DNA of 64,000 bases from Paenibacillus dendritiformis (GTDB lineage Bacteria; Bacillota; Bacilli; Paenibacillales; Paenibacillaceae): positions 124,001 through 188,000 of the forward strand of contig NZ_OX216966.1 in the NCBI RefSeq assembly GCF_945605565.1, read 5' to 3'. The notes under the pieces are model-generated. The model saw only the letters and a list, made by a program, of their open reading frames with translations. It was not told the DNA's origin and did no database searches. Both the position numbers and the translations under genes were made by a program. Positions 43,708 through 47,062 of the stretch are shown here, piece after piece (positions within the stretch are counted from its first letter, which is position 1; every line of letters begins with the position of its first letter).

Positions 43708-44958
43708 TTAATATTTTAGCGATTGATACAGCGGGTATTGCGCCGTCAGCTCCTGCACCATCCGGCGCGCTGTCGCCAGCGTTTCTTCGTCGGCCGGGTT
43801 TTTCAGCGTCATGGCAATCACCTTGCCGATCGTGCGCATCGCTTCGACATCCATACCGCGTGAAGTTGCAGCCGGCGTGCCGATGCGGATGCCGCTCGTA
43901 ATGAACGGACTCGTCGGATCGAACGGAATCGCGTTTTTATTCACAGTAATGCCTACCGAATCCAGCACCTTCTCCGCATCCTTGCCCGTAATGTTGACGT
44001 TGCGCGTATCAATCAGCATCAGATGATTATCGGTGCCGCCGGATACGATGTTCAGCCCTTCTTCGACCAGGGTAGCCGCCAGCGCTTGCGCGTTCTCGAT
44101 GACCTGTGCCGCATATTGCTTGAAGGATGGCTGCAGCGCTTCGCCCAGCGCGACTGCCTTGGAAGCAATCACATGCATGAGCGGACCGCCCTGCGTGCCC
44201 GGGAAGACGGCTTTGTCAATCGCCTGTGCCCAGGCCGAACGGCACAGAATCATTCCGCCGCGCGGACCGCGAAGCGTCTTGTGCGTCGTCGTCGTCACGA
44301 AATGCGCATGCGGCACTGGGCTTGGATGCAGACCCGCGGCCACCAGACCGGCGATATGCGCCATATCGACCATGAACAGCGCGCCTACGTCATTGGCGAT
44401 GGACCCGAGCGCTTCGAAGTCGATGATGCGAGGGTAGGCGCTGGCGCCGGCAACGATCATTTTCGGACGATGCTTGAACGCAGCCTTGCGCACCTTGTCA
44501 TAATCGATGAGGAATGTCTCTTCCTCTACGCCATAGGCCACGAAGTTATACAGCAAGCCCGAAGCATTGACCGGGCTGCCGTGCGTCAAGTGGCCGCCAT
44601 GCGCCAGATTCATGCCAAGGACCGTGTCTCCCGGCTTCAGGGCCGCCAGATAGACCGCCATGTTCGCTTGCGCACCGGAATGCGGCTGCACATTCGCATG
44701 CTCGGCCCCGAACAGCTCTTTCGCCCGGTTGCGCGCAATGTCCTCGACGATGTCGACATGCTCGCAGCCTCCGTAGTAGCGCTTGCCTGGATAGCCTTCC
44801 GCATATTTATTCGTCAGGACGGTCCCCATCGCTTCCATGACCGCTTCGCTTACGATATTTTCCGAGGCGATAAGCTCGATATTGTTCCGCTGACGCTGCA
44901 GCTCCAAATCCATCGCTTTCAGCACTTCCGGATCCGATTGTCGTAAATGTTCTATCAT
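43708..44958 (-). CDS. glyA: Serine hydroxymethyltransferase
   Basis: PLP enzyme converting serine and THF to glycine and 5,10-methylene-THF, the main entry to the one-carbon pool. The 416 residues have the PLP Lys227 in [33 protein letters not shown] near the start, and [14 protein letters not shown] with the PLP-binding Asp. The ATG follows GGGAGGG by nine bases. It is preceded by ywlG and rpiB; the whole group may be under the ZTP riboswitch at 46348-46422, which would sense 10-formyl-THF shortage. Confidence 0.98.
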
Positions 44959-45030: not shown

Positions 45031-45600
45031 TCAATCGCATGAAGTTCCGCTATCGTCCGGTAAACGGTAGACCGCCCGCTCGCCGCCGATCAGCTTCGGC
45101 CGCGTCGACGCCATCGTTACCCTGGCGCTGCCGATGGAACGGAGCTCCGTTCGCAGCGGAACGGCCACGCGGCGCAAATGCATGCCGATCAGCGTCTCGC
45201 CGATGTCGATGCCGGCATGCGCCTCGATGGACTCGGCCAGACATGCGTCCGGCAGCATGCGGTACGCCTGTGCCGCCATCGAACCGCCCGCATGCGGGAC
45301 AGGCACCGCGGCGACCTCCTCCAGCCGGAATTGCTCCAGCGTGCGGCGCTCCACGACCAGCGCGCGGTTCAGGTGCTCGCAGCATTGAAAAGCGAGCTGC
45401 AGGCCGAACTCGGTCCGCAGCACATTCAGCCCGTCGAACAGCATCCGGGCAACGTCAAGCGTGCCGGCCGTGCCGATCCGCGCGCCGGCTACTTCGCTTG
45501 TGCTGCAGCCGATGACGATCAGTTGGCCCGGGGCAAGCTTCGCTGCAGCCGCCAGTTCCCGGGCGGCCTGCTCGGCCTGCCGCTCATAAGAAGAATTCAT
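45031..45600 (-). CDS. ywlG: TIGR01440 family protein (YwlG)
   Basis: The 189-residue protein belongs to the conserved YwlG family, usually next to glyA and rpiB in Bacillales. Typical stretches are GQLIVIGCSTSEVAG, FQCCEHLNRALVVE, and the C-terminal MASTRPKLIGGERAVY. The Cys/His-rich FQCCEHLNRA suggests a metal or catalytic site, but the function is not established. The ATG has GAGGAGG upstream. It follows rpiB by 23 bp and precedes glyA by 72 bp. Confidence 0.93.
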   Translation of the reverse strand: MNSSYERQAEQAARELAAAAKLAPGQLIVIGCSTSEVAGARIGTAGTLDVARMLFDGLNVLRTEFGLQLAFQCCEHLNRALVVERRTLEQFRLEEVAAVPVPHAGGSMAAQAYRMLPDACLAESIEAHAGIDIGETLIGMHLRRVAVPLRTELRSIGSARVTMASTRPKLIGGERAVYRLPDDSGTSCD

Positions 45601-45623: not shown

Positions 45624-46082
45624 CTACGGTGCCGGGTTGTACTTGCGCTCGGCTTCCTCCACCTTGCGGATGCGGCCTGCATGGCGCTCCCCTTGACTGA
45701 ATTCCGTGCCGAGCCAGACGCGGACGATCTCTTCCGCCAGGCCAGGGCCGATGACCCGTTCTCCCATGGCGAGCACGTTCGAATCATTATGCTCCCGCGT
45801 CGCCTTCGCGGAGAACAAATCATGCACGAGCGCGCAGCGAACGCCAGGCACCTTGTTCGCGGCGATGGACATGCCAATCCCGGTCCCGCAGATCAGAATT
45901 CCGCGATCGGCTTCGCCGGCGGCCACCTTCTCGGCGACAGGCACGGCATAATCCGGATAGTCGACCGAATCAGTGCAATGGCAGCCGAGATCCTCTACCT
46001 CATGCCCCAGTTCTCGAATTACCGCGATAATACCGTCCTTCAGCTTCACACCTGCGTGATCCGCTCCAATTGCAATTTTCAT
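45624..46082 (-). CDS. rpiB: Ribose-5-phosphate isomerase B
   Basis: Interconverts ribose-5-phosphate and ribulose-5-phosphate, feeding PRPP synthesis. The 152-residue RpiB/LacAB protein has IAIGADHAGVKLK near the start, the catalytic-type Cys65 in ILICGTGIGMSIAANK, and REHNDSNVLAMG. The open frame is longer, but the ATG at 46082 follows GGAGGGAAC and matches the family. It is the first gene of the rpiB-ywlG-glyA group, with a 386-bp leader region containing a riboswitch, a terminator and a second promoter. Confidence 0.96.
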   Translation of the reverse strand: MKIAIGADHAGVKLKDGIIAVIRELGHEVEDLGCHCTDSVDYPDYAVPVAEKVAAGEADRGILICGTGIGMSIAANKVPGVRCALVHDLFSAKATREHNDSNVLAMGERVIGPGLAEEIVRVWLGTEFSQGERHAGRIRKVEEAERKYNPAP

Positions 46083-46155
46083 GTACGTTCCCTCCATCCC
46101 ATCATTCCCTGGGCGAGGCCGCAGCCCCCTCCAGGAAACAATATGCTGTCTGTCC

Positions 46156-46161
46156 ATTATA
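46156..46161 (-). promoter_or_regulatory. Putative second promoter of rpiB, downstream of the riboswitch terminator
   Basis: Minus strand TTGGTTATAATGG holds a consensus TATAAT about 75 bases before rpiB. The -35 is weak. The same 13-mer occurs in front of ychF (53759-53771). It would allow expression that escapes riboswitch control. Confidence 0.45.
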
Positions 46162-46296
46162 ACCAATTTTCGAACAGTTGGCCCGCATCTTCGACATGAT
46201 TTTGCCGAAAGCTTGCTTCTCAATGCCAGCACCGGAACAAGGGGCTGCATCCCTCCCGTAAATGCCTTTAAGTGCGTGTTCAAGAACTGAGTCCTC

Positions 46297-46346
46297 AAAA
46301 AAAAGAAAAAAGAGCATAGCATGGCCTTAACCATGCATTGCTCTTT
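46297..46346 (-). terminator. Riboswitch expression-platform terminator
   Basis: AGAGCA/TGCTCT and GCATGG/CCATGC arms are followed by a long U-rich tail (UUUUUUCUUUUUUUU) on the minus strand. It starts two bases after the conserved end of the ZTP aptamer, so ligand binding can control whether it forms. Confidence 0.9.
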
Positions 46347-46347
46347 C

Positions 46348-46422
46348 GCCCAGGCGACCGGCCGTATATCACTCGATGCTCCACCGTGGTTCTCCCACTT
46401 CCGTCGCCAGTTACACCGAGTG
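46348..46422 (-). ncRNA. ZTP (pfl) riboswitch aptamer upstream of rpiB-ywlG-glyA
   Basis: On the minus strand the conserved core is present in order: AACTGGCGA, a P2 hairpin GTGGGAGAACCAC followed by GGTGGAGC, and the 3' signature CCGGTCGCCTGGGC. P1 forms by pairing CACTCGGTG (46414-46422) with CATCGAGTG (46370-46378), nine pairs with one G-U. CGCC in the P3 loop can pair with GGCG of the first junction, the known pseudoknot. ZTP riboswitches sense ZTP/ZMP, which build up when 10-formyl-THF is low. The gene set downstream (glyA, rpiB) fits that signal. Confidence 0.9.
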
Positions 46423-46439
46423 CCACTCATCTATTTCCG

Positions 46440-46468
46440 ATAATAATGGATGCGCCGCGGAAATGCAA
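46440..46468 (-). promoter_or_regulatory. Putative sigma-A promoter driving the ZTP riboswitch
   Basis: Minus strand TTGCAT (46463-46468), 17-nt spacer, TATTAT (46440-46445). It ends about 18 bases before P1 of the aptamer and abuts the ywlE stop codon. Confidence 0.65.
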
Positions 46469-47062
46469 TCACTTTGTGTCAGGCGGGGCCAGCTTGTCCA
46501 CCACGACGAGCAGCGCCTCCCGAATCTGCAGCGCGGTCATCCGGTATTCCTCCAGCGAACCGCCGAACGGATCCGCGACATCCGGATTCGGGCAGAGCCG
46601 ATCCAATTCGGCCAGTTCCGCCAGCTCCTCCGGCGTCGGCTCCTGTCCCAGCGCCTGCTTCAGCTGCAGCTCGGCGGCCAGCTCCTGCAGCCGATCGCGC
46701 TCCCCGGAACCGCCTTCTCCCGGCTCCGCATATTCCCTCAGCGTATAAGTCTTGTCGGCCGCTGCGGGGAACCGCTGCAGCACATGGCGCTTATGGCCGA
46801 CGGTCAGCGTCAAGATAAGATCGGCCCAGACCACCTCCGCTTCGCTCAGCGCCGTCGAAGCAAACGTCTCGTATCCCTCAACATGATGCTCCTTCAACAC
46901 GGCAGCGGCATGATCCGACATCGGCGTTCCATCCCATGCCGATACGCCCGCCGACTTGACCTCCAGCTCCAGCCCCCGTTCGGCGGCCAGTTGGCGGAGC
47001 ATCGCTTCCGCCATCGGACTGCGGCAGGTATTGCCTGTACATACGAATAATATCCGGTTCAT
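46469..47062 (-). CDS. ywlE: Low-molecular-weight protein arginine phosphatase (YwlE-like)
   Basis: Removes phosphate from arginine residues phosphorylated by McsB. The P-loop CTGNTCRS gives Cys8 as nucleophile, Arg14, and the diagnostic Thr12, which in YwlE selects phosphoarginine over phosphotyrosine. The general-acid Asp164 lies in VADPFGGS. At 197 residues it is longer than the usual about 150. Residues about 112-157 form a Glu/Leu/Ala-rich insertion before the DPFGG motif. The gene follows a 33-codon ORF and mntP. Confidence 0.92.
   Translation of the reverse strand: MNRILFVCTGNTCRSPMAEAMLRQLAAERGLELEVKSAGVSAWDGTPMSDHAAAVLKEHHVEGYETFASTALSEAEVVWADLILTLTVGHKRHVLQRFPAAADKTYTLREYAEPGEGGSGERDRLQELAAELQLKQALGQEPTPEELAELAELDRLCPNPDVADPFGGSLEEYRMTALQIREALLVVVDKLAPPDTK

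Follow-up and report, generated by a model that had tools for sequence, protein, structure and literature searches.

The leader in front of rpiB-ywlG-glyA very probably acts as a transcriptional ZTP/ZMP riboswitch that controls this operon in Paenibacillus dendritiformis. The aptamer, the terminator, the operon, their conservation throughout the window's taxonomic order (hereafter the order) and a conserved TATAAT box behind the terminator are read from the DNA itself, from which we infer ligand binding, the ON direction, read-through and the activity of the putative promoters P1 and P2. The riboswitch class is a known one, and the biological meaning appears narrower than first proposed. Two previously unremarked features of the leader, the terminator abutting the aptamer and the TATAAT box behind the terminator, appear to hold order-wide.

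The window, that is, the whole 64-kb stretch of DNA that was analysed, contains the following features:

46469..47062, minus strand: ywlE, low-molecular-weight phosphatase family (PF01451), the upstream neighbour that bounds the leader
46440..46468, minus strand: putative promoter P1 (sequence; recurrence in relatives)
46341..46424, minus strand: ZTP/ZMP aptamer RF01750 (cmscan; pair coordinates from its alignment)
46297..46347, minus strand: intrinsic terminator (folds, terminator scan, conserved in relatives)
46153..46172, minus strand: promoter-like block P2, CGAAAATTGGTTATAATGGA, with TATAAT at 46161-46156 (conservation in leaders)
45624..46082, minus strand: rpiB, ribose-5-phosphate isomerase B, 152 aa (TIGR01120 and NF004051 above cut-off; PF02502)
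45031..45600, minus strand: ywlG, DUF436/UPF0340/TIGR01440 protein, 189 aa (TIGR01440, PF04260)
43708..44958, minus strand: glyA, serine hydroxymethyltransferase (SHMT), 416 aa (NF000586, PF00464)

A ZTP aptamer upstream of rpiB-ywlG-glyA

A cmscan search of the whole window returned an RF01750 (ZMP-ZTP) match at 46341-46424 on the minus strand (57.4 bits against an Rfam gathering cut-off of 39 bits; E 1.1e-6), which spans positions 1-86 of the 86 of the model and is the sole Rfam gathering match in the 64 kb. The match lies within 46340-46430, where the sequence-only reading had predicted a ZTP aptamer and proposed this search, and bears that prediction out. One ZTP element was found in the whole genome (6.72 Mb, one contig). 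In the covariance alignment, P1 of the aptamer comprises 10 pairs (46422-46413/46379-46370) rather than the nine previously counted, P2 is formed by GUGG/CCAC (46398-46386) and P3 by GCC/GGC (46362-46360/46350-46348), with the model's two outer P3 pairs being non-standard here. The same alignment contains the pseudoknot of the class, earlier suggested as a possibility, between GGCG in J1/2 (46408-46405) and CGCC in L3 (46356-46353), and the aptamer carries the CGCCUGGGC motif that is also present in relatives. The ZTP class controls purine and formyl-THF genes, glyA included (PMC2864571, excerpt); here the aptamer stands upstream of a one-carbon gene, glyA being the third gene of the operon and the only SHMT gene found in the genome (one match). 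The assignment of this RNA as a ZTP riboswitch, with the terminator and operon behind it, is supported, ligand binding would be that of the class and the ON direction we infer by analogy with the class.

Pfam and NCBIfam matches confirm the proposed identities of all three operon genes, and the genome search yielded one PF02502 gene and one rpiA. The description of ywlG as uncharacterised is outdated: excerpts of the published work report a direct contact of YwlG with HPF, a solved structure, glutamate dehydrogenase activity and compensation for the missing glutamate dehydrogenase GudB in S. aureus (PMC9522360), as well as an influence of ywlG on how much EF-P is modified in B. subtilis (PMC5885033). 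Solved YwlG homologues are 7z06 and 1v8d, and the residues that are invariant among 15 sequences include QCCEHLNRA. The rpiB frame is stop-free from an ATG before the aptamer through the leader, giving a 268-codon open reading frame (45624-46430, minus strand) that is probably due to chance.

The candidate promoter P1 starts directly after the ywlE stop codon and consists of TTGCAT (46468-46463), a 17-nt spacer and TATTAT (46445-46440). Its fit to the sigma-A consensus is weak (8/12 positions), and it is absent from a consensus promoter scan with a threshold of 9. By contrast, 59 of 79 relatives have the pattern TTG-N20-TAnnnT 41-50 nt (once 62 nt) ahead of where the aptamer is estimated to start, compared with 2.0 expected from single-base shuffles. 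It is because of this recurrence that we accept the promoter proposed earlier at this position as a probable one.

The terminator abuts P3 and leaves it unused

The terminator stem is formed by GAAAGAGCA (46347-46339) pairing with UGCUCUUUU, has the upper stem GCAUGGU/GCCAUGC and is followed by a U tract (46311-46297) with one interrupting C. Folding of the 136-nt leader gives -50.7 kcal/mol (z -3.1), a stability reached by 1/200 shuffles. The sequence-only reading had recognized this terminator but placed it two bases further on, whereas the stem begins directly after the GGGC of P3 (at 46347 or 46346), within the range reported for RF01750. Defined as an uninterrupted stem of at least 7 pairs that starts no more than 3 nt from GGGC and has a U run at its end, such an abutting terminator is present at 77/79 ywlG sites and 59/62 other ZTP sites of the order (136/141), compared with 4/24 outside the order. 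Four ZTP sites from outside the order that carry its abutting platform (L160, L167, L169, L172) could reflect horizontal transfer.

In the ywlG class of terminators, GAGC within the first 10 nt and a later GCUC occur in 73 of 75 distinct sequences, one of the two misses being cut by the 50-nt limit and the other a wrong motif match. The region between GAGC and GCUC is represented by 69 distinct sequences with a mean ungapped identity of 0.31, but folds at a median of -16.1 kcal/mol compared with -7.8 kcal/mol when shuffled. A fixed lower stem together with a variable, yet stable, upper stem indicates that the hairpin is under selection and that its base (AAAGAGC/GCUCUUU in the glyA class) is held in sequence and not only in pairing.

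In the ZTP switches studied previously, an invading strand base-pairs to P3 at its 3' nucleotides and then moves on through the pseudoknot (PMC10085676, PMC7337938, excerpts). We therefore scored the duplex energy of the P3/L3 segment with the ~80 nt downstream against shuffled downstream sequence. Outside the order, the mean was -17.1 kcal/mol compared with -12.6 kcal/mol for shuffles and 20/24 sites lay at or below -14 kcal/mol, whereas the means were -9.7 compared with -11.8 kcal/mol for 79 ywlG sites of the order, window included (3 sites at or below -14), and -9.8 compared with -9.3 kcal/mol for 62 non-ywlG ZTP sites of the order (4 sites); this contrast is descriptive, because the -14 kcal/mol line was set after the values had been seen, 11 of the 24 outside sites belong to one family (f16) and several of the outside sites lack a U run and perhaps do not act on transcription. 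By these duplex energies, a P3/L3-complementary downstream invader was not found at the ywlG sites, among them the window. The published route of antitermination appears to be absent here, since neither P3 nor the pseudoknot has a standard base pair in common with the terminator. A covariation study of whole riboswitches limited the ZTP post-aptamer sequence to 5-35 nt (PMC13273304, excerpt), a limit that may omit part of the leaders described here.

A promoter-like block behind the terminator

Between the terminator and rpiB lies CGAAAATTGGTTATAATGGA, which occurs once in the genome at up to two mismatches and is identical at 17/20 positions in 8 aligned leaders of the 19 from the genus; AAATTnGnTATAAT is present behind the terminator in all 19. 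A TATAAT between the terminator and the first gene was found in 19/19 genus leaders (2.1 expected) and 39/57 others (2.9 expected), that is, in 58 of the 76 leaders of the order (three of 79 were unparsed) compared with 5.0 expected from single-base shuffles, a test that overstates independence because the leaders are related. In a second pass with another selection, a perfect TATAAT was present in 56/79 leaders, with a G two bases upstream in 55 of the 56. A G at this position is a feature of extended -10 elements. A clear -35 box was not seen for P2, where the U tract of the terminator often occupies the corresponding region, and P2 is absent from the consensus promoter scan. We suggest that the block is probably a ZTP-independent promoter, which, if real, would give ZTP-independent transcription of an operon that contains the only SHMT gene, with the riboswitch adding to this floor. 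The earlier description of the leader missed this block, which could feed the operon without ZTP. In many leaders from outside the genus (for example L062, L067, L071, L074 and L078), a CGUC motif sits just 3' of the terminator U tract, about 20-24 nt before the second TATAAT.

Distribution of the switch and loss of rpiB

All 19 genomes of the genus carry a ZTP element (27 sites), one of which lies between ywlE and rpiB in every genome, with the remaining 8 sites having other neighbours; ywlE is upstream in 19/19 of these loci and in the majority of loci fetched elsewhere. Within the family to which the window belongs, 295/295 genomes carry a ZTP element, and 152/295 have a match to the RpiB of the window. 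In 18/19 regions centred on rpiB from other genera, the ZTP element again separates ywlE from rpiB, the exception being a lone rpiB (L073) in a genome whose ZTP-ywlG-glyA locus (L083) is without rpiB. Of 21 ZTP-centred regions (L078 and 20 more), which were picked mostly from genomes without an RpiB match, 18 have the arrangement ywlE-ZTP-ywlG-glyA without rpiB and 3 have no nearby window genes. A DJ-1/PfpI family protein is also a frequent ZTP target in the window's family (L030 1631-2698, L016, L028, L034, L042 and others), forming a cluster of 19 downstream proteins, of which the single member searched matches PF01965. Elsewhere among the relatives (L005, L008, L041), ZTP elements precede folD together with a formiminotransferase-cyclodeaminase-like gene, an ATP-grasp gene resembling PurT and a gene for SAICAR synthetase.

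Across the order, 147/149 genomes have a ZTP element and 147/149 have ywlG. When the 147 ywlG sites were joined by coordinates to the 150 ZTP places listed, at least 56 had an upstream ZTP element, at a bimodal distance of 117-340 nt (25 sites, with no room for rpiB) or 583-787 nt (31 sites), and in fetched loci of both kinds rpiB is absent or present accordingly. Twenty of the 91 unjoined sites, from many genera, were fetched, and 19 of these contain the ZTP element (17 with rpiB in between, 2 without). Altogether, the switch precedes ywlG, with or without rpiB in between, at 75 of the 76 resolved ywlG sites, a set drawn from the 147 that has the window's own site among the other 71. In one genome (G318, L141; 1.4 Mb, 91% complete), ywlE-rpiB-ywlG-glyA is kept and a ZTP element was not found in the genome.

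Within the class Bacilli, a ZTP element was found in 38/151 genomes, 26 of them outside the order. Among the places listed for these and compared by eye, none lies before ywlG, and 24 outside-order ZTP sites have none of the window's genes nearby. All 20 fetched ywlG loci of Bacilli from outside the order have the arrangement rpiB-ywlG-glyA, and a ZTP match was found in 0/20. Among named genomes, the best 80 of 585 ywlG loci include 41 with an upstream ZTP motif, all from Paenibacillus, Cohnella, Saccharibacillus or Thermobacillus, the motif being missing in one Paenibacillus locus (L233) and in all 38 others; for 20 of the 80, cmscan gave the same result as the motif search (8 positive, 12 negative). 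From 14 of these 41 riboswitch loci, again within the best 80 of 585, rpiB is missing, and the switch then stands directly before ywlG-glyA.

Since the rpiB-ywlG-glyA arrangement is found without the switch around the order, the arrangement would be older than the switch. The simplest history is a single gain of the switch, in the ancestor of the order, by an operon that already existed, and the order has retained the switch almost without exception since then.

glyA and ywlG as likely steady targets

The sequence-only reading took the placement in front of rpiB to implicate both pentose supply and YwlG in the response to folate stress. The case for pentose supply is weak, because the gene arrangement exists without the switch, rpiB is repeatedly lost behind it and rpiA offers a second isomerase: rpiA is present in 29/31 genomes tested, including 26/26 of the window's family, and a PF02502 match is absent in 13/16 genomes chosen as being without rpiB at this locus. 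Thus, rpiB appears to be a replaceable, dispensable passenger and not what keeps the switch in place. The part concerning YwlG fares better, as co-regulation of YwlG persists after rpiB loss and seems to hold throughout, although the linkage of ywlG to glyA predates the switch. The natural reason for the switch is glyA, because it encodes the single SHMT and is a known target of the class (PMC2864571, excerpt). We consider it likely that ywlG and glyA, and not rpiB, are the steady targets, with glyA as the main point.

Proposed mechanism and alternatives

In the proposed mechanism, RNA polymerase would start at P1, just 3' of ywlE, and when ZMP/ZTP is absent the terminator would form right after P3, such that most P1 transcripts end at the U tract. 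A shortage of 10-formyl-THF would raise AICAR (ZMP) and ZTP, which would then bind the aptamer and lock P3 and the pseudoknot so that the polymerase reads through. Read-through would raise mainly glyA, and thereby the supply of serine-derived one-carbon units, along with ywlG and, where present, rpiB, and the switch would add to a ZTP-independent base level that P2 probably provides. Because a complementary downstream strand was not found, the coupling would differ from the invasion of P3 and the pseudoknot described in the literature. Our guess is that P3, once docked and bound to ligand, prevents the terminator helix from growing out of the last base of P3, through competition, steric or by stacking, for the AAAG that follows GGGC. 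We put forward only tentatively, as doubtful, the fuller proposal that the order has a distinct ZTP platform, with no shared paired strand, a ligand-locked P3 that blocks the terminator helix sterically or by tertiary contact, and a second promoter further downstream, whose constant output the ZTP response would supplement.

A functional aptamer could also have rpiB as its physiological target, supplying ribose-5-phosphate for PRPP alongside one-carbon units. Indeed, rpiB heads the operon in the window and in 19/19 genomes of the genus, and in G301 and G310, two genomes from the order, no ribose-5-phosphate isomerase other than RpiB was found. We nevertheless regard this as unlikely, since the switch stays where rpiB is gone, both at the 14 of 41 named loci (best 80 of 585) and at the 25 of 56 coordinate-joined loci without room for it, and the occurrence of the gene arrangement without a switch and the presence of rpiA in 29/31 genomes point in the same direction.

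An objection to our account is that P2 could make the operon partly or wholly switch-independent. In the extreme, P2 would carry most of the transcription and the ZTP element would be a weak add-on or relic of little effect, for which AAATTnGnTATAAT in 19/19 genus leaders, the excess of TATAAT in the order (58/76 compared with 5.0 expected) and the usefulness of a constitutive supply from a single-copy glyA can be cited. This seems improbable, as the aptamer (57.4 bits) and the terminator features are kept across the order, unlike a relic, and the putative P2 has no clear -35 box in view. That the RNA binds a changed ligand or acts as an OFF switch, its platform differing from the ZTP switches studied, would fit the lack of a strand common to P3/pseudoknot and terminator, but we consider it highly improbable: the aptamer match is full-length with only the two outer P3 pairs non-standard, and at other sites in the order this platform stands in front of folD and a cyclodeaminase-like gene, purT and a SAICAR synthetase gene, which is the expected regulon.

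ZTP switches are a model for riboswitch control by strand displacement. An abutting, non-overlapping terminator throughout an order would, if true, show a second coupling of aptamer to termination, that is, antitermination without strand exchange. Natural losses of rpiB distinguish a passenger from the steady targets ywlG and glyA, and would connect folate stress with YwlG, a protein that in other Firmicutes is associated with ribosome hibernation and the modification of EF-P. If transcription also starts from a promoter 3' of the terminator, such leaders would have to be read as providing an added dose rather than a gate.

Comparison with known systems

In B. subtilis, glyA is controlled by PurR. 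The operons of Bacillus and other Bacilli share the order rpiB-ywlG-glyA, often with ywlE upstream, with the window, which differs by the presence of a ZTP element that was not found in those loci. The switches of C. beijerinckii (pfl), F. ulcerans and T. carboxydivorans (PMC10085676, PMC7484762, PMC7337938, excerpts) are likewise transcriptional with an intrinsic terminator near the aptamer; in these, downstream nucleotides pair with P3 and break the pseudoknot, whereas such a strand was not found here. With the ZTP (pfl) class RF01750 as a whole, the window shares a full-length covariance match, the P1-P2-P3 architecture and the GGCG/CGCC pseudoknot, as well as a glyA-type target and a terminator 3' of the aptamer (PMC2864571, excerpt). 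It differs from the class in having rpiB as the first gene, a terminator that abuts P3 and leaves it unused, and a TATAAT box 3' of the terminator.
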